DNA of 64,000 bases from Pseudoips prasinana (Eukaryota > Arthropoda > Insecta > Lepidoptera > Nolidae), in assembly GCA_951640165.1 (NCBI GenBank), contig OX621257.1, positions 12,597,201 through 12,661,200 of the forward strand. Reading direction: 5' to 3'. The position numbers and the translations under genes were made by a program. Position 1 is the stretch's first letter. The number at the start of each line of letters is the position of its first letter. The notes below the pieces were generated by a model. It made no database searches, had not been told where the DNA came from, and saw only the letters and a program-made list of their open reading frames with translations. Below are positions 5,396 through 58,385 of the stretch, in pieces.

Positions 5396-5774
5396 TAAAG
5401 AAATTTCCCTTCTTACTTTGTCATTGAAAGCGCCATTGAACGAAAACCTCAAGAAATCCCTGCACAATGGTTGGGATATCATTTAATACTTCCTGTATTG
5501 AATTCTATTCTGTCCTCAGACTGGGAATCGATTTCGTTTGTAAAGCGACGTAGCTCTCGGGTTTATATAAATCCAGCTGTATTATTACAAAGTTAAACAG
5601 TTCAACAGTATTATTATTATAATTTGCCATCGTGGTTCAACAGTTCTTCATTGGAATGCATTACTTCTCGAAATCAGGATGGCCAATAGTCGCTTCTCAT
5701 TTAAAAGAAAGTTCGAGAGCATAGCCTTCGGAAATTCTAAGCAGAAACCCCTCGGTTATAAATTTATTATTATA
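5396..5774. other. Non-coding spacer
   Basis: No domain, RNA or clear repeat identified. Confidence 0.4.
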
Positions 5775-6097
5775 CTAGCTGTGGCCCGCGGTTTTACTCG
5801 TGTTACATTTTATAAATTATCACAGCTCCTCCCCCGTAGGTGATAGCGTGATAATATGTAGCCTATAATGTTGACCCCATCTGTTAGTAATATTCATGCA
5901 AAATTTGAAGTAAATCCATGCAGTACTTTTTGAGTTTAGCCCGGACATACATATAGATAAACAGACATATAGAACAAAGTTCTAAAAGCTATAATTTTGG
6001 CTTCGATATGCATCGTAAATCATGCCCCAATATATCCTTTTCAAAAAATATTCAATGTACAGTTTTGACTTTCCTACGATTTTATTATATGTATAGA
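5775..6097 (-). mobile_element. Helitron-like family A copy 5
   Basis: A complete-looking element: CTAG + GC hairpin at the left (plus-strand) end and ...TTTTATTATATGTATAGA at the right, ~323 bp, no ORF. Confidence 0.65.
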
Positions 6098-6520
6098 TGA
6101 TCGGATTGAATAGTGTAGTATAGTATTTTATAGTACCTATAGTTTAGTGTTATATAGAATAGTGTCGTATGTATTCCATTGTATAGTATTTTATAGTATT
6201 GTATAATCCAGTTTTTTTACATTTAATGTTTACCTTATGATCTGTGCATCTACCAAGCTCTCTCTGCACCACTCTAAGGTTGACTGGCAGAAAATGCCTA
6301 GGGCATTAAGTCCGCCTTTGTACAATTTTATATACATAAAGTGATAAATAAATAAAACAGTATATGAGCCAGCCAAGTCCTGAAGTTGTTATTTAATTAA
6401 ATCCATTTCTAGTATTTCATGAGACCATTATCTCGTACGTGGTTGAAGCCTTAATGAGCTTGCAGTGTAATAGTTTCTCTTTACAGAATGTTTCCGCAAC
6501 GGCTTGGTATAATAATAATA
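6098..6520. other. AT-rich spacer with TATAGTA-type low-complexity sequence
   Basis: About 6105-6210 is built from degenerate ATAGTGTAGTATAGTATTTT units. Nothing else recognised. Confidence 0.4.
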
Positions 6521-9661: not shown

Positions 9662-10822
9662 TTACAATTTTATATCTAGATTCAGTAGCCAGTCCCTTGC
9701 CTCGGTTGTAAGCGCAAGCAGGCCCTCAAGTCCCCCTGAGAAATGTCTTATGGGGCACTCTTCGACAATGTGCGCAATGGTCTGGTCTGGTGCTCCACAG
9801 TCACAGGCTGCTGATGGTATGAAACCCCACTTTTGAAGGTTGTGGTTGCATCGACCCACCCCCGTTCGTATTCGATTGAGAGTGACCCATATCTTTCGGC
9901 TTTCTTTAAAACCAGTGGGGGTTTTGGTGGGGTCTATGTTAGAGATGCACCCCTGGTCATGCCAGTATTTTTTCCACTCGGTATCGACATCGAAGGTTTT
10001 GTTACTTTGTAGGTAGGGGTCGGACCAGATAGGTCTGCGAGATTGGAGGCGCATACGTGGGAGGTTATCTAGAGTCTTTCGTATGGGAAGCATCTGAGCT
10101 GCAGCCTTATTCCATTCAAGTGAAGCGGCGAGTGTTCTCCTAATCGGTGGAGGAGCGATGTTTGATAAAACCGGGAGCCATTGTGTTGGTGTTGGTTTCA
10201 AGCTGCCACTTACAGTTCGCATTGCCCGGTTGAGTTGGACGTCAACTCTATCAGTATGTGCACTTCTGTACCATACGGGTGCACAGTATTCTGCTGCGGA
10301 GTACACGAGAGCTATTGATGAAATACGCAGAACGTCAGCACGGGCGCCCCATGTCGTACCCGCGAGCCTGTTGATGAGGTTGACACGTGTCTTAAGTTTT
10401 TGACCCAGATCTTCTAAGTGGCTTTTATAGGTTAGTGAGCGGTCCAGTTTTACTCCTAGATATTTAGGGCTGAAATTATGACGTAGTTTCTGACCGCAAA
10501 ATTCGACATCAATCTCTCTACGTGCAAGGCTGTTTGATAGGTGGAATGCTGCTACTTCGGTTTTGGAAGGATTAGGGCAGAGTCGCCACTTTGTGTAGTA
10601 GTCCTTCAAGGTTTGAAGATCCCGAGTAAGTGCAGCTTCACCGGTTCCAAAGTTCTTCGATTGTGTAGTGAGTGCGAGGTCATCGGCGTACAGAAATTTA
10701 TCGCACTCGGTTGCAGGCATGTCGCAAGTGTAAATGTTAAACAGCAGAGGCGCTAAGACCGATCCCTGGGGTAGGCCGTTTTTTAGAAGTCTAAACTTGC
10801 TTTCTCTATCACCCAGTAACAC
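9662..10822 (-). pseudogene. LINE ORF2 segment: RT catalytic half + C-terminal domain
   Basis: 386 codons open. GLPQGSVLAPLLFNIY is near residue 14 and the active-site FLYADDLAL near residue 45. The thumb region follows, then a C-terminal motif NRIRTGVGRCNHNLQKWG and the cluster CDCG...H..EECP. The N-terminal boundary is the frameshift, not a real start. A second, diverged relative occurs at 15000-15837. Confidence 0.8.
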
Positions 10823-10823
10823 T

Positions 10824-12386
10824 TTAATTTGGCGCGGTCCTAGTATTACTACCCAGTAAACGAAGAATCTTTGCAGATGGTATAATTTTGCCAGCCTTGT
10901 GCAGTAGCCCTTCTATCCATACGGTATCATATGCCGCTCTTAGATCTACGAAAGCGGCAAGAGTTTTCTGCCCACGCTGGAAACCGGCCTCAATGTGGCT
11001 AGTGAGTGCGAGAACTTGGTCTCCGCAACTTCTACCCGCACGGAATCCCGCCTGCTCAGCTGGGATATGTTGGTCAACTGTTGGCTTAAGGCGGTTGTAT
11101 ATAATGCGTTCCAGCAACTTAAATGTGACGCTCAGCAGTGATATCGGTCTGAAGTTGGCTGGGTCATCGGACGCTTTCCCTGGCTTGAGAATAGCTATCA
11201 CTTTGGACTTCATAAACAGGTTGGGTAGTATAGCAGTCTCGAAGATGTTATTATAGAAGTCGGTCAGCCAGCGGAGAGATTTGTTACCAAGGTGGATAAG
11301 AAATTCAGGATATAGGTCGTCAAACCCAGCGGCTTTCCCACACTTTATTTTCTTCAGAGCCAGATGCACCTCATTTTCTGAGAAGGGCTTATCAAGTATG
11401 TCGTTAGGTTGTTGGGAACGAAGTAGAGCCCGGTTTTCATGTCGTATATCTTTAGCGAAAGCTTTGTCAACGGTGGCACTTTTCGAGATGATTTTTAACC
11501 GTTCTGCAATTTGGTCAGGGTGTGTTGTGACTTCTGTTCTAACAGGTGGGGCAGCTCCACCCAATTTCCGCAACAGTGCCCAGCTTTTTCTACTTGAGTG
11601 TGCAAAGTTCATGCTCTCAACACTGTTGGTCCACTTTTGCCTGCGCGATTCGGTGAGTAAAGCCATTAATTCCTCAGCTGAGTTGGAGTCACTGGTAGCA
11701 ACATACCTTTGGTATGCTTCCTCGGTGTCCGGAGACCATCCAGGGATGTATTCTTTCCGGAAACCTCTAGGTATGGATTTCTTAGCTGCACTGATTACCA
11801 TTTTGCAGAACCTCCCGTGATTGGATGCATTAGGTTTCAACCACCTGATATCTGACTCCATTTGATGTTTATATGAATCCCAATTGGCCTTTTGGAAATT
11901 CCACCGAGGTTTCGGTAGTGATTTTATAATGGGCACCTCTAGGCCGATCTTAACAAGTGCAGGTCGGTGTTGACTGCGAGGGAAGTCGCCTAATATTGTG
12001 CGTACGGTAGGCAAGACATTTCCATGAATATCCTCAGTAACAAAACAGAGATCTGGGTTTGAGTCACTCTGCCACCGCGCTGATCGGAAAGAGCCCCGCT
12101 GCTTCGCGTCGAAGACCAGATGGAAATTTTCCTCTACACTCCATTCGTAAAGCGCCTCACCACTAGTGTTGTTAGATGTATAACCCCATGCTCCATGTCG
12201 ACTATTAAAATCCCCTAGATAAACAGCCGGGTGGTTGTGTGTCCTGAGCGGGGGGGTTGGAAAGTCGCTATTGGGTGGTTTATACACAGATGTGAGGGTG
12301 ACATTGGAAACCCTGACGGTTATAGTCTCCAAGTTTTTATCATTGCTGATGTTTAATATATGGACGTTTGAAACAGCAGACTTCAC
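10824..12386 (-). pseudogene. LINE ORF2 segment: endonuclease C-part + RT palm (first half)
   Basis: An open stretch of 520 codons. About residues 55-62 give YLGDFNSR (endonuclease metal site region) and about 140 gives SQHRP. A linker of ~170 residues leads to the RT blocks (KCGKAAGFDDLYPEFL, ANFRPISLL, EQAGFRAGRSCGDQ, LAAFVDLRAAYDTVW). It ends by frameshift before the catalytic YADD, which is found in the following frame. Confidence 0.8.
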
Positions 12387-21253: not shown

Positions 21254-22411
21254 ATGGTTTTTACAGATTATTTATTTAAAAATATGGATGGACAGATTCA
21301 GGTTGACGCTGTGTACACCGATTTTCGGAAGGCTTTCGACAAGGTGGACCATAAATTGCTACTAGATAAAATTGCTTATAATGGTATCCGTGGCAACCTA
21401 TTGCGTTGGTTCATGGCTTACATATTTAATAGATCACAAAAGGTGGTTATTAATGGCTTCCAATCTAACCCAATTATCGTCACATCTGGTGTGCCCCAAG
21501 GCTCAATAATTGGGCCACTATTGTATACTTTATTCGTTAATGACATTAAAACATGTTTCATCCATTCCCAATTTCTAATGTACGCCGACGATATCAAAAT
21601 TTACAAGACATGCAAAACCATACAAGATTGCCTACTTTTACAGGAAGACCTAGATAGACTTTCTCGATACTGTTTACAAAATAAACTTCAGCTCAGCTTA
21701 CCCAAATGCAATATAATTACTTTCACAAAAAACAGAAACATTATAACATTCGATTATAATCTATGTGATATCAGTCTACAAAGAGTCGACCGTATTAGAG
21801 ATCTTGGGGTCTTAATCGACTCAAAATTACACTTTGACTGTCACATAGATAATGTCATTAATAAAGCGTATCGTATGTTTGGATTTATAATGAGATCGTC
21901 ATCTGACTTTAAAAGACCGTCGACATTTTTACTTTTATATAAAACCTTAGTACGTTCTCAATTGGAATACGCAGTCCCGATTTGGAGCCCTATTTTTGAC
22001 GTTTACATAAAAAAACTAGAAATTGTTCAAAAAAAATTTCTACGATCTATGCACTATAGATGCACTAAGTCTAGAATACCATACACAGATTTATTGGAAC
22101 GCTATAAACTTCAGAGCTTACAGTCCAGACGTAGTTTACTGATGGTCATGATGCTTCATGGTCTTTGTAATAACAAGTTTGATTGCACTGACATCACTAA
22201 CAACTTATGTTATATTGTACCTAGAACTGTAATGCGTCGAGAGGCACGCGTCCCCCGGCTGTTCCACACCGCGCGGTGCAGAACTCACGCTGGCGCACGG
22301 GTGCCTCTCCGACGCATTGTGGAAACGTATAACACACACTTCCACGATTTGGACATTTTTGCACTATCGCACTTTAAGTTCAAAAAAATGGCTACTGAAC
22401 TACTAAAATAG
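21254..22411 (+). CDS. Reverse transcriptase of a 5'-truncated Jockey-like LINE
   Basis: An open 385-codon frame, uninterrupted. It starts inside the RT palm: VYTDFRKAFDKVDH (catalytic Asp block A) near residue 20, SGVPQGSIIGPLLYTLFVND near 93 and the catalytic YADD near 125, followed by RDLGVLIDSKL and a thumb/C-terminal region ending MATELLK. Endonuclease, ORF1 and the N-terminal RT blocks are missing, so this is not a functional element despite the open frame; the ATG is incidental. After the stop comes a ~210-bp 3' UTR with CCAATAAAG and an A-rich tail. A related but more decayed copy is at 32505-33420. Confidence 0.85.
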   Translation: MVFTDYLFKNMDGQIQVDAVYTDFRKAFDKVDHKLLLDKIAYNGIRGNLLRWFMAYIFNRSQKVVINGFQSNPIIVTSGVPQGSIIGPLLYTLFVNDIKTCFIHSQFLMYADDIKIYKTCKTIQDCLLLQEDLDRLSRYCLQNKLQLSLPKCNIITFTKNRNIITFDYNLCDISLQRVDRIRDLGVLIDSKLHFDCHIDNVINKAYRMFGFIMRSSSDFKRPSTFLLLYKTLVRSQLEYAVPIWSPIFDVYIKKLEIVQKKFLRSMHYRCTKSRIPYTDLLERYKLQSLQSRRSLLMVMMLHGLCNNKFDCTDITNNLCYIVPRTVMRREARVPRLFHTARCRTHAGARVPLRRIVETYNTHFHDLDIFALSHFKFKKMATELLK

Positions 22412-33668: not shown

Positions 33669-34274
33669 TTACGTCACTTCCCTATAAACTACGTTGGTAG
33701 TTATGCTGTTAGGAGCCAAAATGTAAAGATAGAAATGACTGGTGACGCGGGAGCAAGCAGCGTAATGTTGCCCGTATGAGAAGCAACTCGTCCTGAGGTC
33801 GACACCCGCTGCCCTCAGTGTCTGCCCCTGCGACTTATTGATGGTCATCGCGAAGCAAACACTCACGGGAAATTGTACGCGCTTGAACTGGAACGGGAAG
33901 TTATGAGGTATTAGGGGAATGCGTAGTATATACACTGCCTCGCCGTCATCACAACCCGTAAGAATTTCCGCCTCAATGGCGGGTCTGTGAAGCGAGATGA
34001 CTTTAAGGCGGGTCCCGTTACACAACTTCGGAGGAGATAAGTTCCGAAGAAGCATAATCGGGACACCGACCTTCAGCTTGATGGTATGCGCTGGAAGTCC
34101 ACTTGCTGACAGGGAGTTCCAAAATTCCACGGGATAATGTGTGGCGTCATCTTGTTCAACAACAGTGTTTATTGAGGTGTAGACCACTACATTCCCCTCA
34201 ATTTTCGAGAGAATGCATTTGTTGATTGCGGCAATCTGATAATTTTTGGGTGTCAAAATGGCCCGCTCACACAC
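33669..34274 (-). pseudogene. Helitron helicase C-terminal domain
   Basis: 201 open codons. ERAILTPKN near the start, the LSPPKLCNGTRL block, and helicase motifs V/VI: FAMTINKSQGQTL and GQHYAACSRVT. These are characteristic of PIF1-like helicases of Helitrons. Normal stop at 33669, leaving ~245 bp to the presumed terminus. Its start is just the upstream stop, not a true initiation site. Confidence 0.85.
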
Positions 34275-34286
34275 CCAAGAATTCTG

Positions 34287-35062
34287 CTAGTGCGGTATAC
34301 GACTAATGTCCCCGTACACACAGCGAATGAGTTCTTCTAAGCTGGATACCACTCTACCGAGAGACTCTGGAAGCACCACCTGTCCACCTCTCTCTTCTGG
34401 TAGAGTGCCTTCGCCAAGACTTAGAAGGACATCGGAGAATTCTTGAGCACGTGCATTGCCTCCGAGCCGAGCTCTTATATTAATGGTCAAGCGCAGCGTA
34501 CGAACTCGTTACCACAACAAAGATCGTTTCAACAAAGCATTCACCTCGTCAGTCTTCGATCCCCACGACATCAAGGGAAGTTTGCCGGATTAACCACTGA
34601 ACAGAACTGTGACACAACCCATCAAATGTTCGTTCCTGCAGATGTCCTGCAGGGTTCCGTCCACGGCCTCTACTGCCTTCCTATTGGCCATAGTACACTC
34701 ATCCCATACGATCAAAGAGCAATCCTTGAGCACGTGCCCCTTATCGCTGTTAGGTGACACACCACAAGCAGGCGTTTCGGCGCTCTCTAAATCGATGGGA
34801 ATTTTACACATGAAATGTGCTGTCTGACCACCTGGAAGCAGTGTAGCAGCGATTCCCGACGACGCTACAGCAATAGCAATTTTGCCTTGCCTCCTGATCT
34901 CTGCAAGTATGCCAGTGGTAACAAATGTTTATCCTGTTCCACCAGGAGCATCCAAGAGAAACATTTTACCCTGGTCTGTCCAATGCTTTCAATGACGGTG
35001 ACATAAATTCGTTTTTGCTCTGAAGAGAACAAAGCGACATGGTCATTTCGTATGGTGGTCAT
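34287..35062 (-). pseudogene. Helitron helicase N-terminal motor domain, broken
   Basis: Spread over several frames. The Walker A region near 34925-34965 reads LLDAPGGTG-stop-TFV: the invariant Lys codon of GKT is a TAA (34929-34931). Walker B appears as SLIVWDECTM (in 34590-34811). TINIRARLGG with EFSDVLLSLGEG (34287-34490) is the conserved block before the C-terminal domain. The stop in the P-loop plus frameshifts rule out helicase activity. Confidence 0.8.
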
Positions 35063-35090
35063 TTGACCCGGATCGTAATTTGTCTCAGCG

Positions 35091-35602
35091 TTATACTCCC
35101 GATTTCCACGGTCTCGATGCGGTGATGATTGGGGAGCTGATAACCCATATTCGATCAGTGGATTGCCGCAGACAGGGGTTTAGCACGCGTTTATCAGTTA
35201 CTTCGACTTCGTCTCCAGTAGCAAGCCTCAAAGCTTGTAGAAAATCTTCAGACAGATGATGACGATATTTCTCCCCCAAAGCTACCGTGACGGCAAACAG
35301 ATGAAGCATGCGGTTGGGATCCCAATTTTGGTCACCGTCGAGAAGGTGACGTGCTACGCAGTCTGCGCGGTACGTGGGATACTCCACGCTATCAAATGTC
35401 CTCAAAAAGGTGAAAGACGTTGAGCCTTGGGCAGTGTGAAGTAACAACCGCAGAAAATAGCATTCGCCATTATTGGGATGCACAGTACGCAATCCGGTGT
35501 CCTTGAAAATTCCCGGAAAACCTTCCACAGCACCTCCTCATCGACGTCGGTTAAATACACCCCTTTGCTTGTCGTACGTGTAATATGAAGGCACCTCGTC
35601 AT
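35091..35602 (-). pseudogene. Helitron Rep-helicase linker region
   Basis: Two overlapping frames. NNGECYFLRLLLHTAQGSTS followed by FTFLRTFDSVEYPTYRADCV is the conserved block between Rep and helicase in Helitron proteins. The other frame supplies the preceding residues (RTTSKGVYLTDVDEEV), implying a frameshift near 35500. Confidence 0.7.
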
Positions 35603-35620
35603 ACGTAAAGATTTCGCAAA

Positions 35621-35945
35621 CTAGTCGACTTCACAGAGCCTGAAAAATGCCACGAGAGTCGTTTGATGCGGATTTTCCAAGCGCTCAGCAACGTTGTCGG
35701 GATCAAAATATATGCGCTGGCCGTTCTCTTGGTGGACTTCTAAATGCATGACGGTAGGATGCCTGTCATGTATAGAGAACGCCAGTAACCGCCAAACCGC
35801 TTCAGAAATGCTGATGTAGCGACCAGACTGGTACTTGGTCACCTCGTCTTTATCAATGCTTAGTAAAGCAAACGTCGCCTGATCTTTCCCTTTGTTGACG
35901 TATTTGCAGATGTATCTGATCGACTCGACGCTGGTGCATGACTCG
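35621..35945 (-). pseudogene. Helitron Rep, tyrosine region
   Basis: The minus strand reads RYICKYVNKGKD around 35885-35925, matching the two-tyrosine segment of the Helitron Rep nuclease. It is followed by GRYISISEAVWRLLAFSIH, a block typical just downstream. The upstream boundary is a frameshift. Confidence 0.7.
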
Positions 35946-36216
35946 ACGTATATGTGCGTTTCGGAGGTCCTGGACAGTACTGATGGTTAAGGAACAATCC
36001 ATCTGTTATCGAACGTTTGCGCCCGGCCACGCACGATCAGCTCAGTGAAATGTCCACCCTCTACTGGTGATCGGCGCCGGTATGAAGGATATCCACCCTC
36101 ACCAGTAATGGTTTCGTTGGTAAATTTTTTTGGGAATCTTTTCGTACATCATCCATCTTTCATGCACGGGGAACTTGGATTCAACGTGCCACAGGGACCA
36201 TGCACCATGTGACTTT

Positions 36217-36800
36217 TCACAATCTGATGCAGAAAGGATCGACGTCAGAGTCCGGAAGCTCAGCACTTATGACTTGATCAATCTGGATGGGCCTGATCTT
36301 CTCTTTCAACCACAAAAGCAGGTGCGCGTGGGGCAAGCCGCGTTTTTTCCATTCCATGGAGTTCATATGACATCGGACTGCACCAAACACTTTTGCCTTT
36401 GTTAGAAGATCCATTAGGCACTTCAACTTCAGGTGGAATACGCGAGAGATCAAGTCATGCCCATCGTACGAGGCCTGTCCTGCAAGGAGTTGAGCTGTTA
36501 TTTCAGGCCACTTTGGGTTGGTAGTGATAGTAATGAAGAGGTCCGGGCGACCAAACTTTCGCACGTAACAAAATGCATCTTGGGTCCTTTCGTGCATGTA
36601 CCGTGGACCTCCTGTGAAGGTGGAGGGGAGAATGACCATCCTTCCTACATCTTGAGCATTTGCATCATTCTGCATGGCATCTCTGAGTTGGACGTAGTTC
36701 TCAGCTCTCAGCTCTCTTTGGTTGGACCTTATAAATACCAAACGCTCTGTCTCAATTTTGGCTGTCCACCAGAAACTGACTAAAGAGCGTACGGTAAGCT
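36217..36800 (-). pseudogene. Helitron Rep (HUH) nuclease domain
   Basis: 174 open codons in 36217-36741, extended by a frame to about 36800 (LFSQFLVD). PDLFITITTNPKWPEI and the HUH motif GLPHAHLLLW are diagnostic of Helitron rolling-circle nucleases. The N-terminal continuation (normally ~100 residues joining QYPLMF to LFSQFLVD) is missing or replaced at the interruption. Confidence 0.85.
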
Positions 36801-37087: not shown

Positions 37088-37099
37088 TACTTTTTATTT
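37088..37099. repeat. PLE target-site duplication, left
   Basis: TACTTTTTATTT, identical to 42978-42989 at the other end of the array. Confidence 0.8.
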
Positions 37100-37243
37100 C
37101 AAAATACAAAATCAATATTTAGTGTTAATTCCGCTAATTGTCAGTTTAATCATGCTGGGATGCAATTTGCACCGCCCTCCCGCCCGCAAAAATGTGCACA
37201 TGCAAGAAGGACAATATAAAAAGCAAATTACATGCGCCAGTAC

Positions 37244-37291
37244 GATACCCAACACGTGTTTCGGTCCTCCACGGACCATTCTCAAGGGCTG
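37244..37291 (-). ncRNA. Hammerhead-ribozyme-like motif, unit 2
   Basis: The minus strand has GCCC-TTGAGAA-T, stem GGTCC/GGACC with loop GTGGA, then GAAA, short stem ACAC/GTGT, T, GGGT. GCCC can pair with GGGT (stem I). Compared with the hammerhead core (CTGANGA...GAAA) two core bases deviate, so activity is doubtful. PLEs are known to carry minimal hammerheads in this region. Confidence 0.5.
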
Positions 37292-37376
37292 CTAACTCGT
37301 CGAGTGCTCGAAGGAGACTAAAAGCCAACGAGGCGAGCGCTCTTTTATATACTACCAACCGCATGGACAATTATTT

Positions 37377-39806
37377 CTAACTACCCCCAAATATTCGTAG
37401 TAAAGGAGATGAAACTAAATTTGTTTGGTCATTCAACAATGCAAAACTATTAATGCTATGTTTTAATATTTCTAATTGTTCCAACACACATAACCGGAAA
37501 CTTTTATCACAACTATGTAAAATATTATACGTATTATTGTCGCCCAAGGAATGGCCAGTTTCAATTAAATGTTTGGTGTAATGAGATTTATCAGGATGGC
37601 CATTCCTATAAGCAGCTACATGCTCTTTATACCTTATTTCAAAGTTTCGGCCTGTCTGACCTATATATACCGCGTCACAATCATCGCAGACCAACCTATA
37701 CACGCCGGATTTCTTGCAATTTTCCAAATTATCTTTTCCATTACAAAGACGTCGTATAGTTTGGTCCGTCCGAAATGCAACGTGAATATTATTTTTACGC
37801 AGTAAATTGGCAATTCTATCTGAAATTGGGCCCATATAGGTCAGACTACCAACATATTTGTTAATACGGTCAGGGGGGCATGCATACAGTAAAGAGCGAA
37901 CCCTACATCTCTGATTATTTTTAATCAAATTATCAATAATAGATTTTGGATAACCGTTTGATAACGCGATTTCATAAAGAATATTAAGTTCTTTTATGTA
38001 ATTCTCATTAGACAAGGGGACCGACATTAACCTATGAACATAGCTGCGGAAGGCAGCTAGTTTATGTTGATTGGGGTGACATGATGAAGCTGGAATAGCC
38101 ATATCGGTATGTGTTGGTTTCCGATATATTTGAAATTCTAATTTATTATGAACATTAGTTATGGTGAGGTCAAGAAAATTAAGGGATTTTTGTGATTCTA
38201 ATTCCAATTTAAATTTTATTTTAGGGTGGAGATTATTTAATTTAGTAACAAATGAATCAATTTGACGTTTGGTACCAAACCAACAGATTATTATGTCATC
38301 AACGTATCTATAATAAAAGAAAATGTTGGGTTCGCCCACTATATATCTACGTTCAAAATTATCCATAAATATCTCTGCCATTAGTGGACTTAACGGTGAA
38401 CCCATGGCCAACCCTTCCTTTTGGCGGTAATATTGATTGTTAAAACGAAAATAATTTTGTTGCATGCATATTTTTGTGAGTTTAAGTAGATCATACATCT
38501 CTCCAGGATGTAACCGTTGTCTCTCAAAGAGTTCACCCAGAATATGTAAACATTCCTCATGAGGGATATTGGTAAATAGACTATCAACATCTAGGGACAG
38601 TAACTTAGCGGAAGATGGAATTTGAGTATCTTTAATTTTTGAAATTAAGTCTAAACTATTTTTTAAACTGAATTGAGGTTGAAAGAATGCTTTTTTACTT
38701 AAAAGGACGTTAAGATGTTTGGCTAAATTATACGAGGGGGCACCAATATGAGAGACAACAGGGCGAATAGGAACGTTTTCTTTATGAGTTTTTGGCAACC
38801 CATACAAAACAGGTGATCGTGGGTTCATGGGGATAATATTTTTTAATTGATCTGGAGAGATGTAAGACGTACCCTTAATAGCATCTTTTAACTCAATCGT
38901 AAACTTTTTGGTGGGATCAGAATCAAGGCATTCAAAATCGTCACCCTGGATGACATCATTAACCTTCAGATTATAATCAATTCTATCCAGAATTACGACT
39001 GAGTTACCCTTATCAGCTTTTGAAATTACTAGGTTATTCTGGTTTATTTTGTCATTTAAAGAACGAAAAAGAATATTTTCTGACCTACTGTGGATAACCG
39101 GTGTCTTTAAAGCTTTTTTGATTTGAACTGCTATCTGATGCTTAATGATGCCATCCTGTTTACTTCTAAAGCAAGCAATTTCCGAGTTAACCGCCAAAGT
39201 TTCAAGGGATTTCTGGGAAGGCCTAGGTTGAATATTATATTTCAAACCTTTTTCTAACAAAGAAATTTCATTTGGTGAAAACTGAGTATTAGAATAATTT
39301 TTGACGCGGGGATAAAATGTATGCGTTGAAATCGGCAAATTATCAGAATGGTTGAAATTATCATTGCGGCTCTCCCGAGACAATCGCTCCAACTTCCGCG
39401 ATTGTATTACATATTTTTCATGCACCTCTTTCGAAGCCAGATCCCTAGCCTTGTTATCTAAAATATCAAACTCCACGTTATGTAATTTGAAACTCAATTC
39501 GGTATATAATACTTTGAGGTGGAGCTTGATACCATCTCTAACAGAAAACCAATACTTGCATTCCTCATTCAACCATATCTGCTTAGCCTTCCTCAACGCT
39601 ATACTACTAGCTCGGTTATGTGTGTTGGTACGCAAATTAATATAATGAGGTATTACATTCAATTTCTTACATTGTTGATTGAACCATACGTTTTGTGCTG
39701 CCAAACGGTGGAGTTTGGTTAGCTTGATGTAAAGTTTTGCCTGCTCAGCTATACTTGCTGACTGTAGATAAGTAATGGAATCAGGCGTTACTTTGCGGAA
39801 ATCCAT
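37377..39806 (-). CDS. Penelope-like RT with GIY-YIG endonuclease (unit 2)
   Basis: Intact ~809-codon frame (ATG at 39806; an upstream TTG at 39815 is in frame). The N-terminal region is basic. RT blocks: KADKGNSVVILD (~265), YGLPKTHK (~340), LSLDVDSLFTNIP (~415), GLAMGSPLSPLMAEIFM (~475), catalytic YVDD (~503). The C-terminal GIY-YIG nuclease starts near residue 703: GVYRLVC, DDCDAVYIGQTGRNFEIRYKEH, with Cys pairs before it. This domain order and length fit Penelope/Poseidon-type PLEs. It presumably primes reverse transcription at nicked target DNA. No stop or frameshift. It differs from the other unit at one residue (Thr versus Ala in the DKSHY.KHL segment). Confidence 0.92.
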   Translation of the reverse strand: MDFRKVTPDSITYLQSASIAEQAKLYIKLTKLHRLAAQNVWFNQQCKKLNVIPHYINLRTNTHNRASSIALRKAKQIWLNEECKYWFSVRDGIKLHLKVLYTELSFKLHNVEFDILDNKARDLASKEVHEKYVIQSRKLERLSRESRNDNFNHSDNLPISTHTFYPRVKNYSNTQFSPNEISLLEKGLKYNIQPRPSQKSLETLAVNSEIACFRSKQDGIIKHQIAVQIKKALKTPVIHSRSENILFRSLNDKINQNNLVISKADKGNSVVILDRIDYNLKVNDVIQGDDFECLDSDPTKKFTIELKDAIKGTSYISPDQLKNIIPMNPRSPVLYGLPKTHKENVPIRPVVSHIGAPSYNLAKHLNVLLSKKAFFQPQFSLKNSLDLISKIKDTQIPSSAKLLSLDVDSLFTNIPHEECLHILGELFERQRLHPGEMYDLLKLTKICMQQNYFRFNNQYYRQKEGLAMGSPLSPLMAEIFMDNFERRYIVGEPNIFFYYRYVDDIIICWFGTKRQIDSFVTKLNNLHPKIKFKLELESQKSLNFLDLTITNVHNKLEFQIYRKPTHTDMAIPASSCHPNQHKLAAFRSYVHRLMSVPLSNENYIKELNILYEIALSNGYPKSIIDNLIKNNQRCRVRSLLYACPPDRINKYVGSLTYMGPISDRIANLLRKNNIHVAFRTDQTIRRLCNGKDNLENCKKSGVYRLVCDDCDAVYIGQTGRNFEIRYKEHVAAYRNGHPDKSHYTKHLIETGHSLGDNNTYNILHSCDKSFRLCVLEQLEILKHSINSFALLNDQTNLVSSPLLRIFGGS

Positions 39807-39956
39807 AACAATCAAAATACAAAATCAATATTTAGTGTTAATTCCGCTAATTGTCAGTTTAATCATGCTGGGATGCAATTTGCACCGCCCTCCCGCCCGC
39901 AAAAATGTGCACATGCAAGAAGGACAATATAAAAAGCAAATTACATGCGCCAGTAC

Positions 39957-40004
39957 GATACCCAACACGTGTTTCGGTCCTCCACGGACCATTCTCAAGG
40001 GCTG
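39957..40004 (-). ncRNA. Hammerhead-ribozyme-like motif, unit 1
   Basis: Identical to the motif at 37244-37291, 2713 bp away; same caveats. Confidence 0.5.
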
Positions 40005-40089
40005 CTAACTCGTCGAGTGCTCGAAGGAGACTAAAAGCCAACGAGGCGAGCGCTCTTTTATATACTACCAACCGCATGGACAATTATTT

Positions 40090-42519
40090 CTAACTACCCC
40101 CAAATATTCGTAGTAAAGGAGATGAAACTAAATTTGTTTGGTCATTCAACAATGCAAAACTATTAATGCTATGTTTTAATATTTCTAATTGTTCCAACAC
40201 ACATAACCGGAAACTTTTATCACAACTATGTAAAATATTATACGTATTATTGTCGCCCAAGGAATGGCCAGTTTCAATTAAATGTTTGGCGTAATGAGAT
40301 TTATCAGGATGGCCATTCCTATAAGCAGCTACATGCTCTTTATACCTTATTTCAAAGTTTCGGCCTGTCTGACCTATATATACCGCGTCACAATCATCGC
40401 AGACCAACCTATACACGCCGGATTTCTTGCAATTTTCCAAATTATCTTTTCCATTACAAAGACGTCGTATAGTTTGGTCCGTCCGAAATGCAACGTGAAT
40501 ATTATTTTTACGCAGTAAATTGGCAATTCTATCTGAAATTGGGCCCATATAGGTCAGACTACCAACATATTTGTTAATACGGTCAGGGGGGCATGCATAC
40601 AGTAAAGAGCGAACCCTACATCTCTGATTATTTTTAATCAAATTATCAATAATAGATTTTGGATAACCGTTTGATAACGCGATTTCATAAAGAATATTAA
40701 GTTCTTTTATGTAATTCTCATTAGACAAGGGGACCGACATTAACCTATGAACATAGCTGCGGAAGGCAGCTAGTTTATGTTGATTGGGGTGACATGATGA
40801 AGCTGGAATAGCCATATCGGTATGTGTTGGTTTCCGATATATTTGAAATTCTAATTTATTATGAACATTAGTTATGGTGAGGTCAAGAAAATTAAGGGAT
40901 TTTTGTGATTCTAATTCCAATTTAAATTTTATTTTAGGGTGGAGATTATTTAATTTAGTAACAAATGAATCAATTTGACGTTTGGTACCAAACCAACAGA
41001 TTATTATGTCATCAACGTATCTATAATAAAAGAAAATGTTGGGTTCGCCCACTATATATCTACGTTCAAAATTATCCATAAATATCTCTGCCATTAGTGG
41101 ACTTAACGGTGAACCCATGGCCAACCCTTCCTTTTGGCGGTAATATTGATTGTTAAAACGAAAATAATTTTGTTGCATGCATATTTTTGTGAGTTTAAGT
41201 AGATCATACATCTCTCCAGGATGTAACCGTTGTCTCTCAAAGAGTTCACCCAGAATATGTAAACATTCCTCATGAGGGATATTGGTAAATAGACTATCAA
41301 CATCTAGGGACAGTAACTTAGCGGAAGATGGAATTTGAGTATCTTTAATTTTTGAAATTAAGTCTAAACTATTTTTTAAACTGAATTGAGGTTGAAAGAA
41401 TGCTTTTTTACTTAAAAGGACGTTAAGATGTTTGGCTAAATTATACGAGGGGGCACCAATATGAGAGACAACAGGGCGAATAGGAACGTTTTCTTTATGA
41501 GTTTTTGGCAACCCATACAAAACAGGTGATCGTGGGTTCATGGGGATAATATTTTTTAATTGATCTGGAGAGATGTAAGACGTACCCTTAATAGCATCTT
41601 TTAACTCAATCGTAAACTTTTTGGTGGGATCAGAATCAAGGCATTCAAAATCGTCACCCTGGATGACATCATTAACCTTCAGATTATAATCAATTCTATC
41701 CAGAATTACGACTGAGTTACCCTTATCAGCTTTTGAAATTACTAGGTTATTCTGGTTTATTTTGTCATTTAAAGAACGAAAAAGAATATTTTCTGACCTA
41801 CTGTGGATAACCGGTGTCTTTAAAGCTTTTTTGATTTGAACTGCTATCTGATGCTTAATGATGCCATCCTGTTTACTTCTAAAGCAAGCAATTTCCGAGT
41901 TAACCGCCAAAGTTTCAAGGGATTTCTGGGAAGGCCTAGGTTGAATATTATATTTCAAACCTTTTTCTAACAAAGAAATTTCATTTGGTGAAAACTGAGT
42001 ATTAGAATAATTTTTGACGCGGGGATAAAATGTATGCGTTGAAATCGGCAAATTATCAGAATGGTTGAAATTATCATTGCGGCTCTCCCGAGACAATCGC
42101 TCCAACTTCCGCGATTGTATTACATATTTTTCATGCACCTCTTTCGAAGCCAGATCCCTAGCCTTGTTATCTAAAATATCAAACTCCACGTTATGTAATT
42201 TGAAACTCAATTCGGTATATAATACTTTGAGGTGGAGCTTGATACCATCTCTAACAGAAAACCAATACTTGCATTCCTCATTCAACCATATCTGCTTAGC
42301 CTTCCTCAACGCTATACTACTAGCTCGGTTATGTGTGTTGGTACGCAAATTAATATAATGAGGTATTACATTCAATTTCTTACATTGTTGATTGAACCAT
42401 ACGTTTTGTGCTGCCAAACGGTGGAGTTTGGTTAGCTTGATGTAAAGTTTTGCCTGCTCAGCTATACTTGCTGACTGTAGATAAGTAATGGAATCAGGCG
42501 TTACTTTGCGGAAATCCAT
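40090..42519 (-). CDS. Penelope-like RT with GIY-YIG endonuclease (unit 1)
   Basis: Second intact copy of the same ~809-codon protein (ATG at 42519; in-frame TTG at 42528; TGA seven codons upstream of that TTG). All motifs listed for the other unit are present, including YVDD and the GIY-YIG residues. The upstream truncated copy supplies the sequence immediately 5' (3' UTR-like region with the ribozyme-like motif), which in PLEs may serve as promoter-bearing leader. Near-identity to unit 2 implies very recent amplification, or alternatively an assembly duplication. Confidence 0.92.
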   Translation of the reverse strand: MDFRKVTPDSITYLQSASIAEQAKLYIKLTKLHRLAAQNVWFNQQCKKLNVIPHYINLRTNTHNRASSIALRKAKQIWLNEECKYWFSVRDGIKLHLKVLYTELSFKLHNVEFDILDNKARDLASKEVHEKYVIQSRKLERLSRESRNDNFNHSDNLPISTHTFYPRVKNYSNTQFSPNEISLLEKGLKYNIQPRPSQKSLETLAVNSEIACFRSKQDGIIKHQIAVQIKKALKTPVIHSRSENILFRSLNDKINQNNLVISKADKGNSVVILDRIDYNLKVNDVIQGDDFECLDSDPTKKFTIELKDAIKGTSYISPDQLKNIIPMNPRSPVLYGLPKTHKENVPIRPVVSHIGAPSYNLAKHLNVLLSKKAFFQPQFSLKNSLDLISKIKDTQIPSSAKLLSLDVDSLFTNIPHEECLHILGELFERQRLHPGEMYDLLKLTKICMQQNYFRFNNQYYRQKEGLAMGSPLSPLMAEIFMDNFERRYIVGEPNIFFYYRYVDDIIICWFGTKRQIDSFVTKLNNLHPKIKFKLELESQKSLNFLDLTITNVHNKLEFQIYRKPTHTDMAIPASSCHPNQHKLAAFRSYVHRLMSVPLSNENYIKELNILYEIALSNGYPKSIIDNLIKNNQRCRVRSLLYACPPDRINKYVGSLTYMGPISDRIANLLRKNNIHVAFRTDQTIRRLCNGKDNLENCKKSGVYRLVCDDCDAVYIGQTGRNFEIRYKEHVAAYRNGHPDKSHYAKHLIETGHSLGDNNTYNILHSCDKSFRLCVLEQLEILKHSINSFALLNDQTNLVSSPLLRIFGGS

Positions 42520-42529
42520 AACAATCAAA

Positions 42530-42977
42530 ATACAAAATCAATATTTAGTGTTAATTCCGCTAATTGTCAGTTTAATCATGCTGGGATGCAATTTGCACCG
42601 CCCTCCCGCCCGCAAAAATGTGCACATGCAAGAAGGACAATATAAAAAGCAAATTACATGCGCCAGTACGATACCCAACACGTGTTTCGGTCCTCCACGG
42701 ACCATTCTCAAGGGCTGCTAACTCGTCGAGTGCTCGAAGGAGACTAAAAGCCAACGAGGCGAGCGCTCTTTTATATACTACCAACCGCATGGACAATTAT
42801 TTCTAACTACCCCCAAATATTCGTAGTAAAGGAGATGAAACTAAATTTGTTTGGTCATTCAACAATGCAAAACTATTACTGCTATGTTTTAATATTTCTA
42901 ATTGTTCCAACACACATAACCGGAAACTTTTATCACAACTATGTAAAATATTATACGTATTATTGTCGCCCAAGGAC
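42530..42977 (-). mobile_element. 5'-truncated PLE copy at the head of the array
   Basis: It contains only the last ~60 codons of the ORF (stop at about 42803) and the 3' region, then joins unit 1. Homology stops abruptly after CAAGGA at 42976, followed by the target duplication. It has private differences (e.g. ATTACTGCTATG versus ATTAATGCTATG in the full units). Confidence 0.85.
42670..42717 (-). ncRNA. Hammerhead-ribozyme-like motif, truncated leading copy
   Basis: Third identical copy, retained in the 5'-truncated unit, so each full unit is bracketed by two motifs. Confidence 0.5.
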
Positions 42978-42989
42978 TACTTTTTATTT
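42978..42989. repeat. PLE target-site duplication, right
   Basis: TACTTTTTATTT, separated by a single C from the end of PLE homology. Confidence 0.8.
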
Positions 42990-44158: not shown

Positions 44159-44766
44159 TCACCGCTGCCGAGCAGCTGCTCGACGTTCTTCACGCTGCTC
44201 GTCTGTCTCCAACAAAAGTGACAGAGCATGCTGAGAGCGATCTGCCCTCAAGCGAGTCTCGTGGTCTTCTTGATCTTCGAGTGACCGAGCAAGAGAAGTA
44301 TGACTCTGCTGCGAACATAACCTCGCCTCTCGCTGTGTGTAAGTCTCAGACGCACGAGACTCAGCATGGCGCTGCCGATCGCTTTCAAGTCGAGCTTCTC
44401 GCGCTTCAGCACTCTCGCACGATCGAGCGGCATCAGTGCGGCTCCGCTGCGTACTCAGTCTTGTCTCTCGTTGCGTGTACGTCTCTGATGTGCGAGACTC
44501 AGCATGGCGCTCCCGGTCATTTAATAGCCGCATCTCGTATGCTACTACACTTTCATGCGACCGCGAAAATGCATTTTGAGTGCGCATAGTATCTAATCGA
44601 CTGGCGCGACGTACTACTTTCTCCACGTCGAGTTTGCGCATTGTGATCTTGCAGAACAGCCAGCCAACCTTGCCTCACGCTCAACGGTGGTTTCAAGAGA
44701 TCGAGCTAACCTTTTCCTTCGGGAATCATTTGAGGATTGAGATAGGTTAGACCGTTCTCTAAGCAT
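44159..44766 (-). pseudogene. Helitron N-terminal Arg/Glu-rich repeat region with probable start
   Basis: The likely original ATG is at 44766 (MLRERSNLSQSS), followed by REARL-containing repeats. A frameshift near 44640 leads into 160 codons with repeated RHAESR.SET..QRE.RL units (twice nearly identical). Such Arg/Glu heptad-like repeats are common at Helitron N-termini and may bind nucleic acid (inference). Confidence 0.7.
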
Positions 44767-45857: not shown

Positions 45858-46100
45858 CACAGCTCCTCCTGTAGTATGCATGTTGACCCGATCACTTAGC
45901 AAATATGCATACAAAATTTGAAGTAAATCCATGCAGTACTTTTTGAGTTTAGCCCGGACATACATACAGACAAACAAACAAAAATTCTAAAAACTATATT
46001 TTTAGCTTCGATATCTATTCTAAATCACGCCCCAAGTATCCTTTTTAAAAATATTCAATGTACAGTTTTGACTTTCCTACGATTTTATTATATTTATAGA
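45858..46100 (-). mobile_element. Helitron-like family A copy 6 (3' end lost)
   Basis: From CACAGCTCCTCC to TTATATTTATAGA. The hairpin/CTAG part is missing. Lies head-to-tail with copy 7. Confidence 0.6.
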
Positions 46101-46107
46101 TATAGAT

Positions 46108-46359
46108 TCACAGCTCCTCCCCCGTAGGTGATAGCGTGATAATATGTAGCCTATATGTTGACCCGACCTCTTAGTAATATGCATGCAAAATTTGAAGTAA
46201 ATCCATGCAGTACTTTTTGAGTTTAGCCCGGACATACAAAAATTCTAAAATCTTTATTTTAGGCTTCGATATCGATTGTAAATCACGACCTAAGTATCCT
46301 TTTTTAAAAATATTCAAAGTACAGTTTTGACTTTCCTACGATTTTATTATATGTATAGA
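46108..46359 (-). mobile_element. Helitron-like family A copy 7 (3' end lost)
   Basis: Same truncation point as copy 6, which suggests a tandem duplication or a rolling-circle dimer rather than independent insertions. Confidence 0.6.
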
Positions 46360-46835
46360 TTTTATTGTATTCCGTTTCTTTATTTTTTGTTTCTTAGTTT
46401 TTCAGTGTGTGAATGCTGCATGCTTTAGATTAATATTTAGGTTATTTTTTGTATTCATTTAATTTAATTACCTTTATTTATTGCGTTTTACAAATGTATT
46501 TTACATTACTTAAATTATATCTGTTCAAAATAATGTTTATGCTGTGATCTCCTATAATTAAAGATGCATAGGAACTGAGTACCTATAGTTATAAGCTAAT
46601 TTAAGCCTTTTGTAATCTTTGTTGGTTGATCCTAATAAATAAATAAAATAATCAAGAGTCGGTGCAGAATAGATTGTAAGTAAGTATAGGTAGAAAAGTA
46701 GTGAGCTCAGCAAATTTTTAGTTATCTACGAGTATAATCATAAACTTTTATTATTACCATTATTCGGATATTGTTTTCAATTTATATTGCTACTCTAGGC
46801 ATTCTAAGCATTGTCCAAAATGAACAATACCTAGA
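46360..46835. other. AT-rich spacer
   Basis: Nothing recognised. Confidence 0.35.
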
Positions 46836-56578: not shown

Positions 56579-58385
56579 TTGTCGAATCGTCTATGTCGAG
56601 ATGCCAAAAGGCGCCACTTTTACAAAGCTCTCAATAATCGCGATTCCTCCGTAGTATGGAAATTCCTCAAATCGAATGGAATTGGTAAATCTCCGTCTTT
56701 AGTCTGTAAAGATGTTGATCTTTCTGCACTCAATAATCAATTTTCATGTCCCCCCATTTCTCTCGAACCCCACGTTAAATCTATCACAATGAGCTCTCAC
56801 AAGTACCTTTGCCTGAATATTTTCCTTTTACTCTATCTCCAGTAACCTTGGAGGATGTCAAAAACTCTATTTTCGCAATATCTTCTACTGTTGCTGGTCA
56901 CGACAATGTATGTTCTAGGATGATCACTCCCATTCTATCTTTCCTGCTCCCAGTGCTTACTCATATATTTAATTATTCGTTATTTTCTTCCTGTTTCCCT
57001 GCTGCTTGGATACAAGCTCATATAATTCCTTTACCTAAAGTCTCAAATCCTACTTCTCTATCTCAGTTTCGACCCATCTCCATTCTACCTTTTCTCTCCA
57101 AAGTCCTGGAACATATCGTACACCGACAATTATCAGCTTTTCTGGCCAGCAACAACCTTCTTTACCCTCTCCAATCTGGATTTCGCACTGGGCATAGCAC
57201 AGTTACTGCGTTGCTTAAAGTCACCGATGACATCCGCGGGGCCTTGAAAAACCAAAACCTAAGCATTCTGGTACTACTTGACTTTACTAACGCTTTTAAC
57301 TCCGTTGACTTTGACGTCCTCCTTGGTACCCTTTCATCACTTAATTGTTCCCAAACCAGTTTATCCTGGTTTGATTCTTATCTTCGTGGCCGCTCGCAAT
57401 GTGTTCGCCTTGACGAGTCTTACTCGGATTGGTGTAGTCTCAGTGCGGGCGTGCCCCAGGGTGGCGTTCTTTCTCCCTTGCTTTTCTCCATTTTCATTAA
57501 CTCTATTTCAACAGCCATTTTCTCTAATTTTCATCTCTATGCAGACGATTTTCAACTTTACCGAGCATTTTCCCGTGAAAACGCCGCGTCCGCTATTGCT
57601 GCTGTAAATCACGACCTGAACTTGATCAATGGATGGGCAAGATCTCGTGGCTTACTTATTAATCCAACTAAGTCCCAGGCCGTGATCATAGGAAGTAGGC
57701 AGATGCGAAACGGAATCGATTTCATAAACTTTCCACGGGTGTATCTGGACGGAGCTCCTAATGCATATACAGATACTGCCAAAAACTTAGGAGTTACTAT
57801 TGACTGCAACCTGTCCTGGAAATCACACGTCTCAGATGTCAGCAAGAAGGAACATTATACATTTCATTCTCTGAAGCGCCTCCAAAACTTTTTGCCATTG
57901 AAGACGAAAATATCTCTTGCTCAAACACTCATTCAACCCATTTTGGACTATGCCGACAGCTGCTATTTAGATGTCACAGAGGAGCTATTAGACAAACTTG
58001 AGCGTTTGCAAAATTTAAGCATTCGGTTTGAAGAAATATGATCACGTTTCCAATTTCCGCAAGGATCTCAATTGGCTCCCGATTCGTCTTCGCAGGAATA
58101 CCCGTCTATTGTGTATCCTCTTTAATATACTTACTACATTATCCTTCATCTCCATCCTACTTACGGGGGCGTTTTTCCTACTCTCGTGTTCCTAATGCCC
58201 CCTGTAGGTCACACCTTAAACACCTTCATAAATTCCCATTGCATAAAACAGATTTCTATTCTCATTCCTTCACAGTTCAGGCAGTCAGATTGTGGAATTC
58301 TCTCCCTCCTAACATCCGTAATTCCAAAACACTACCTCTTTTTAAGAAGCAAGTGAAAAATTACTATCTCTCCTCTTCATCCTAG
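56579..58385 (+). pseudogene. LINE reverse transcriptase, 5'-truncated, two frameshifts
   Basis: Three consecutive frames. 56579-56845 covers the pre-RT linker (RHFYKALNNRDSSVVWKFLK). 56809-58041 is the main RT (410 codons): SQFRPISILPFLSKVLE, SGFRTGHST, LLDFTNAFNSVDF, AGVPQGGVLSPLLFSIFIN and catalytic YADD (~240), then KNLGVTIDCNLSWK. 58038-58385 is the C-terminus (FTVQAVRLWNSLPPNIRN...FKKQVKNYYL). Frameshifts near 56815 and 58030 inactivate it. Endonuclease and ORF1 are missing. The 3' UTR runs to about 58608 with AATAAAAATAAAATAAG. Jockey/CR1-group-like. Confidence 0.85.
56809..58041 (+). pseudogene. LINE RT core (longest open segment)
   Basis: 410 open codons containing all RT palm blocks, the catalytic YADD and the thumb up to LERLQNLSIRF. 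The real protein continues in the +1/-1 frame after about 58030. Different family from the 21254, 9662 and RTE elements, judging by block sequences. Confidence 0.8.

Follow-up and report, generated by a model that had tools for sequence, protein, structure and literature searches.

Introduction

How Penelope-like elements (PLEs) insert is an open question in print. Here, we analyse a tandem PLE array at positions 37100-42977 on the minus strand of a 64-kb stretch (the window) of contig OX621257.1 of the lepidopteran Pseudoips prasinana, together with sister insertions of the same family elsewhere in the assembly. Among the closest described systems, Poseidon of Anolis (PAc; PMC11167929) has, like the window element, one open reading frame (ORF) for a reverse transcriptase (RT) with a C-terminal GIY-YIG endonuclease (EN), tandem units with pseudo-long terminal repeats (pLTRs) and an AT-rich target. 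In vitro, both target strands are cut and extended in PAc, and two adjacent internal RT start sites match and define an optional tail, the start site being alike on both strands; the steps that follow internal initiation are called yet to be validated (PMC11167929). The elements Pen1-Pen6 of Adineta vaga also form partial tandems and head-to-head inverted pLTRs carrying TATA/Inr motifs; they have 8-10 bp duplications, a 31-bp tail may be present on one pLTR of an inverted pair, and their insertion was hypothesised to involve self-priming on an antisense template (PMC3846280). Metazoan retrozymes, which have been linked to PLEs in print, share the tandem units, but they are non-coding short repeats that have active hammerheads and move through circular RNA (PMC7229834), and neither feature was found here. 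A further likeness exists to twin priming of L1, in which an inverted insertion within a duplication is primed from both target strands. Twin priming gives rise to a minor by-product, with priming at arbitrary sites within the RNA, whereas in the present family the head-to-head form is the commoner product among the loci read and the start sites are fixed.

The family differs from the described PLEs in several respects. Whereas RT starts at +111-118 in PAc (PMC11167929), one of the sites found here is placed shortly before the ATG and the other falls about 38 nt inside the ORF, and, unlike in PAc, no intact hammerhead was found in the window element. Each start site is used once per two-sided insertion, a pairing that the bulk assay applied to PAc would miss (PMC11167929). 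The Penelope elements of Adineta vaga are present in very few copies, whereas we count thousands of 3' ends and duplications of mostly 12-13 nt; and in contrast to the optional tail of Adineta (PMC3846280), the tail stands on exactly one end in 35/35 two-sided insertions with both ends read. In the literature examined, which leaves several key PLE papers outside it, we came across neither a strict one-tail rule nor the idea that a single RNA is used for priming from both sides, and we do not claim priority.

Results

The window array and its family

The array comprises a leader and two full units, B and C, with the 2713-bp period of the original prediction reproduced by base-by-base comparison. 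The 5'-truncated leading copy described there was likewise found (451 bp, unit nt 2263-2713), and the two full frames, said to be one residue apart, are 809 codons each and differ only at residue 744. A single base separates units B and C (37577/40290) and gives Ala744 in B and Thr744 in C; since Ala744 occupies a nearly invariant column (at least 90%) of a 26-row alignment (A1), Thr744 of unit C is probably derived. At one further base, 42879, the leader departs from both full units (Ser785 vs Ile785). The predicted 12-bp duplication at the outer edges, TACTTTTTATTT, was located on both sides (Table 1); it occurs exactly twice in the window, each time abutting the array, and an abutting match of at least 12 arose by chance in 30/200,000 random position pairs of this repeat-rich window. 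No other piece of the element was found within the window by tblastn. The insertion had been called recent, and over its 5,877 bp the array indeed shows a single private change, which gives a 95% upper bound of 9.5e-4 per site.

A copy search of the assembly (1.126 Gb, 56 contigs) recovered the array and placed it among about 3,900 family 3' ends, so that it did not prove exceptional. The 35-bp unit end with up to two mismatches occurs 3,916 times (reversed control pattern: 0), and the 36-bp sequence that joins the unit end to the ATG has 609 exact occurrences (314 + 295). The array is thus present in the assembly, young and, as a PLE, ordinary. Besides it, we read 45 insertions in 47 stretches (L020-L066), comprising 39 head-to-head insertions, 5 one-sided ones (L034, L035, L040, L046, L065) and one (L062) that runs past its stretch and was excluded from scoring. 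The first 20 stretches (18 insertions) were the best matches when 201 bp of the ORF served as query, a choice that favours copies retaining that part of the ORF, and L040 came from the same list; the clusters C1:39.05M and C1:33.4M of this list were left out. L041-L046 were the first six C1 clusters of the 36-bp junction match list, L047-L060 were fourteen short head-to-head pairs picked as such, and L061-L066 added five single ends plus an odd pair.

One tail per head-to-head insertion

In the head-to-head pairs the 5' ends meet centrally and the 3' ends face outward. The two outer ends are of different kinds: the no-tail end breaks off where the unit ends, shortly before the ATG, and matches on for 0-8 bases, and the tail end continues beyond the unit end for 22-50 nt, into the beginning of the following unit (exact match, mode 44). 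One end of each kind was present in 34/34 pairs with both ends read and also in L064, giving 35/35 at the level of the sequence. L044, the right end of which lies beyond its stretch, was kept outside the end counts; the pattern lists give it a tail on the left and none on the right.

The same rule emerged from a list compiled blind to structure, which holds 100 exact 3' ends in 60 clusters on C1, C2 and part of C3. It contains 15 pairs with the tail on the left, 14 with the tail on the right, one without an exact tail and none with two tails, in addition to 25 single ends and five complex clusters, and all 30 simple pairs point 3'-outward. In the pair without an exact tail (L064), the tail carries a substitution. 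If the ends chose independently at one half, 30/30 one-tail pairs would have a probability near 1e-9. As the list holds exact ends only, decayed ends show up in it as singles; the five singles fetched (L061, L062, L063, L065, L066) comprised three pairs with a truncated or decayed partner, one one-sided insertion and one that extends beyond its stretch. Those three pairs (L061, L063, L066; judged by eye) fit the one-tail rule and are not among the 35. Among the one-sided insertions, the window array has the no-tail end, like L034, L035 and L065, and L040 and L046 have the tail end. Folding of the RNA around the RT start sites gave an unconvincing z of -1.4.

Target site and duplications

The flanks of a pair share 10-15 nt in 33/34 pairs, most commonly 12 (14 pairs) or 13 (11 pairs), lengths that include bases common to the element ends; for mismatched flank pairs, 3/1,122 share at least 10 nt. 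The flanks of L051 share 12 nt in the final measurement and none by an earlier routine. Duplications of 11-12 nt also enclose the one-sided insertions L034, L035, L040, L065 (by eye) and the window array. On the no-tail side, the target has T at -1 in 33/34 and A at -2 in 29/34, and the primer end is complementary to unit nt 1-3 over 2.53 nt on average, versus 0.48 by chance. Because two-sided extension accompanies the duplication, 3' overhangs would be required.

Some loci show additional peculiarities. At the right end of L035 (ATTTT) and the left end of L037 (CAAAAAT), extra bases resembling the unit end lie between element and duplication, as if the polymerase had stuttered at its start. 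Tiny pLTR-only head-to-head insertions of about 120-490 bp, with 11-15 nt of flank sharing (L059, L055, L052, L049, L047, L048 and similar loci), would resemble palindromic miniature inverted-repeat transposable elements in repeat annotation. At L3839 (L038 + L039), about 6.2 kb of other sequence separates the two arms of one pair.

The two arms of an insertion are matched

Over 19,810 bp in 16 insertions, no non-private variant was discordant between the arms; the private variants of these insertions were common to both arms in 21 cases and confined to one arm in 16. The arms differ by 0.081%, and none of 10,000 re-pairings was as similar (mean 0.44%, minimum 0.19%). A raw comparison had given 31 differences over 27,261 bp of pairwise overlap, many of which were one gap at nt 2447/2448 that was later counted once. 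Arm lengths are correlated (rho 0.71, n=33, with the nested L049 dropped), also where both arms exceed 300 nt (rho 0.80, n=16), a subset in which the choice of short pairs cannot inflate the value. They agree within 30 nt in 12/33 pairs, compared with 2.5 expected, and in 3/16 long pairs, compared with 0.3. The no-tail arm is the longer in 23 pairs, equal in 3 and the shorter in 7 (p 0.005); together with the matched lengths, this agrees with a single RNA being read by two polymerases, of which the no-tail one leads. At L031 (2519-7564), the same stretch, about unit nt 1406-1439, is missing from both arms, so a deletion derivative was probably the template of both.

Where the 5' ends meet, central fillers of at least 10 nt match the element beyond single-base shuffles in 9/14 cases. 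Such element-templated fillers resemble polymerase-theta-type joining. Near-identical arms of similar length would also be produced if the head-to-head structures arose by self-priming (snap-back), the origin put forward as a hypothesis for the Penelope elements of Adineta (PMC3846280). However, a copied arm should then end where the first one began, whereas the outer ends use two fixed sites in 35/35, and the element-templated fillers are a further point against it. We consider a snap-back origin of the inverted pairs very unlikely, being disfavoured by the two different outer ends.

A promoter-like motif and recurrent 5' ends

Every stop codon is followed by a TATA/Inr-like promoter, in which TATATAAAAG precedes an Inr-like TTAGTC by about 30 nt, a pairing that had been recognised before the arm ends were looked at. 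Of 75 listed 5' ends of arms, 4 fall on unit nt 2494, ten at 2495-2512 and none at 2445-2493; the list includes one artefact (L060 minus) and a minus arm of L050 that is shortened there, both of which were remeasured. By the later measurement, five no-tail arms (L047, L050, L054, L056, L060) are 220 nt long, which corresponds to base 2494. The ends at or just after 2494 come nearly all from short pairs, and the four at 2502 fall in overlapping arms and are less certain. Since arm ends recur at and after the Inr base, some cDNAs appear to reach the 5' end of a promoter-made RNA, which suggests that the pLTR promoter may be used in the family. As the promoter follows each unit's own stop codon, each ORF would be driven by the unit upstream, the leader serving the first full ORF; and with the start codon at unit nt 7, nearly the entire 5' leader of the mRNA would derive from the upstream unit.

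Origin of the second full unit

According to the original prediction, the array had inserted as a unit. The 12-bp duplication on its outside and the similar lengths at sister loci suggest that at least the leader and one unit arrived in one event, and this part of the claim stands; for the second full unit it is uncertain in view of unit nt 2360. This base is T in B and C and G in 38/40 copies covering it, the leader included, and an exact search found the 36-mer with T2360 at only two places in the whole assembly, units B and C. One unit may have been added by duplication in situ, or the template may have been a mixed multi-unit RNA. The window units form a distinct lineage, with 12 positions unlike half or more of the sampled copies. 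The nearest other copy scores 2311 versus 2347 bits over 1,301 bp, and no sister or source array of the window unit closer than 99% was found among the 40 of 784 candidates scored.

It is possible, at odds that we put somewhat below even, that one full unit and the leader inserted and that the second unit arose later in place, through unequal exchange of the leader pLTR with the terminal pLTR. This would explain why B and C alone in the assembly share T2360 and the leader has G, and the 451 bp common to the leader and the unit end would offer a substrate for the exchange. On the other hand, same-strand multi-unit arrays exist at L040 and L3233, so that multi-unit templates are available, and under either model the 40 of 784 candidates scored do not include a source of the window unit. 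That the assembly duplicated the second unit, for instance by placing two alleles in tandem, seems to us quite improbable: B and C are one base apart and the case is built on assembled sequence, but this 56-contig assembly contains other multi-unit arrays that share the period and vary in copy number. The least credible origin of the tandem is a circular RNA of unit length, reverse-transcribed as a rolling circle. It would yield near-identical units, and hammerhead-made circular RNAs have been reported for the PLE-linked retrozymes (PMC7229834), but the unit is without a hammerhead core. With G2360 in the leader and T2360 in B and C, a single circular template cannot easily give the array, since a base that is common in the leader and private in both full units would need a reversing copy error; we therefore disfavour this origin.

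Protein and class assignment

The unit ORF matches RVT_1 (E 4e-14). Its GIY-YIG match (E 0.0066, 17.2 bits) is below the cut-off of 22.6, and 25/26 members of alignment A1 match GIY-YIG at E up to 1, the best at 4e-06; G701, Y703, Y714, G716 and the YVDD residues are invariant throughout this alignment. An AlphaFold2 model of the protein (mean predicted local distance difference test score, pLDDT, 88.5) has as its best Foldseek match in the PDB the telomerase TERT 3du5 (E 5e-10, TM 0.31/0.41, rmsd 13.9), with bacterial RTs close behind in the ranking. The telomerase-like RT known as a PLE trait is thereby seen in the fold match, and further PLE traits are the single ORF with RT and GIY-YIG, tandem or partial tandem pLTRs, the short target site duplication and a 3' tail on some copies. 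The Penelope-like identity given in the original prediction finds support in the domains, the fold and the tandem pLTRs, and by these predicted features the element is an EN-containing PLE with RT and C-terminal GIY-YIG. Residues 575-699 contain five scattered cysteines without a CxxC cluster, and the element is without the Neptune hallmark, a cysteine-rich stretch between RT and EN (both by eye, on the translation).

In total, 341 protein relatives were found; among the 120 of them listed, the closest has 77% identity, and the closest named ones are lepidopteran, from Parnassius mnemosyne (63%) and Euphydryas editha (59%). Many protein relatives sit on contigs about 2.7 kb long, a length compatible with tandems of the unit that was given no weight in the argument. 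No relative was confirmed in viral contigs by a single-protein search, and an alignment-based search of these contigs returned distant RTs only (11 loci, 22-42% identity). None was confirmed in prokaryote genomes, none was found in phages, and a PDB sequence search with the ORF protein gave one marginal RT.

A hammerhead ribozyme is reported in PLEs and was not treated here as a defining trait of the class. Between 36500 and 43600 there is no Rfam match up to E 1, hammerhead included, and a pattern search found no CTGANGA...GAAA core in the unit. On these two grounds a hammerhead in the pLTR was rejected, there being only a degenerate look-alike stem. This stem-loop, at 37233..37288, is one that we take to resemble a hammerhead; the resemblance carries no score.

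Neighbouring sequence and feature coordinates

A decayed Helitron lies on the minus strand on both sides of the array (33672-36798 and 44162-44674), into or beside which the array may have inserted. Its left part contains Helitron_like_N (E 1e-48), PIF1 helicase and Pif1 2B pieces, and its right part an STPR-like match below its cut-off. Other RT frames (RVT_1) of 345-385 aa, apparently pieces of other retroelements, are located at 9662-11861 (minus), 21254-22411 (plus) and 56920-58041 (plus). The RVT_1 match at 9662-10720 is below its cut-off, and the closest named relatives of the frame at 56920-58041 are lepidopteran (Tuta absoluta and Parnassius). Dispersed repeats with many copies of about 80-95% in both orientations occur at about 300-2100, 5700-6100, 45880-46360 and elsewhere (first 80 rows of the comparison).

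Table 1. Features of the Penelope-like array, in window coordinates
Feature	Position	Strand	Basis or remark
Target site duplication, left copy TACTTTTTATTT	37088..37099	no strand	window sequence comparison
Unit C, complete PLE unit of 2713 bp, with the no-tail 3' end on its outer (left) side	37100..39812	-	
Unit C pLTR, stop codon to unit end, 277 bp	37100..37376	-	
Degenerate stem-loop, unit nt 2525-2580, without CUGANGA core	37233..37288	-	
Unit C intact ORF, 809 aa, RT and GIY-YIG, Thr744	37377..39806	-	
Unit B, full 2713-bp PLE unit	39813..42525	-	
Unit B pLTR, upstream of unit C ORF	39813..40089	-	
Unit B intact ORF, 809 aa, RT and GIY-YIG, Ala744	40090..42519	-	
Putative second RT start, unit nt 44, commonest tail end	42482	-	inferred from sister insertions
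Putative no-tail RT start, unit nt 1-3, just upstream of ATG	42523..42525	-	inferred from sister insertions
5'-truncated leader, 451 bp, unit nt 2263-2713: ORF end and pLTR	42526..42976	-	
Leader pLTR, upstream of unit B ORF	42526..42802	-	
Inr-like A of TTTTAGTCTCC, unit nt 2494, leader	42745	-	also 40032, 37319; recurrent sister 5' end
TATATAAAAG, unit nt 2462-2471, leader pLTR	42768..42777	-	also 40055-40064, 37342-37351
Single base at 5' joint, matching neither unit nor duplication	42977..42977	no strand	
Target site duplication, right copy TACTTTTTATTT	42978..42989	no strand	window sequence comparison

Discussion

The window array and the sister pairs are probably explained by target-primed reverse transcription from a staggered cut, with two fixed start sites on the element RNA. 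Starting from the boundaries, the duplication and the one-tail rule as read in the sequence, we infer the overhang, the shared RNA and the joining, and we propose the following multistep mechanism in which (i) the endonuclease makes a staggered cut that would leave 3' overhangs of about 12 nt, in keeping with the near-constant duplication length; (ii) a 3'-OH primes reverse transcription at one of the two fixed sites, the no-tail site just upstream of the ATG or the tail site about 44 nt further on, inside the ORF; (iii) in most sister insertions both 3'-OH ends would be used, one per site and probably on one RNA; (iv) the two antisense cDNAs would be end-joined centrally to give a head-to-head pair within a duplication of about 12 bp. 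According to this scenario, only one end would have been used at the window array, with the start at the no-tail site; copying would have covered about 5.9 kb of multi-unit RNA before halting inside the ORF of the third unit, thus leaving the leader, and the free cDNA end would have been joined to the other side of the cut.

Several observations weigh against this mechanism or limit its reach. It is drawn from the assembled sequence, and the loci are not random, the first 18 insertions having been found by the ORF query and 14 having been chosen as short pairs. L034 is irregular inside, with unit nt 2603 joined to 1092, no duplication was found at the one-sided L046, and L3839 is the exception among the flank pairs, with a weak duplication of 10 nt by the looser and 6 nt by the stricter measure. 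Where the arms overlap by at least 200 bp, the own arm is the closest among all right arms in 9/14 insertions and second in four; at L023 three changes in one arm put it in 13th place of 15. The tail arm is longer than its no-tail partner in seven pairs, the ends of the equal arms of L048, L053 and L058 overlap by 10-12 nt, which makes their equality partly a matter of alignment, and 5/14 central fillers have no excess match to the element. In addition, gene conversion between palindrome arms could be the source of their similarity, and equal arm lengths could result from simultaneous arrest on two RNAs from one locus.

For two-sided priming, we hypothesise that an RT dimer occupies a single pLTR-ORF junction of one RNA, where its two active sites, spaced by about 44 nt, would extend different 3' ends of the 12-nt staggered cut at once, a model to which we give an even chance. 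If true, it would account for the one-tail rule, for arms that come from the same source and match in length, and for the usually longer no-tail, or leading, arm, and one-sided tandem arrays such as that of the window would be products of single-end extension.

The value of these results lies in the family rather than in the array. The family, whose 3' ends number in the thousands in a single assembly, is a natural insertion library and yields a strict, checkable rule (one tail, a duplication of about 12 nt and matched arms from the same source) that separates insertion models and can be tested in other PLE-bearing genomes, thereby making the insertion mechanism of PLEs testable from sequence alone.

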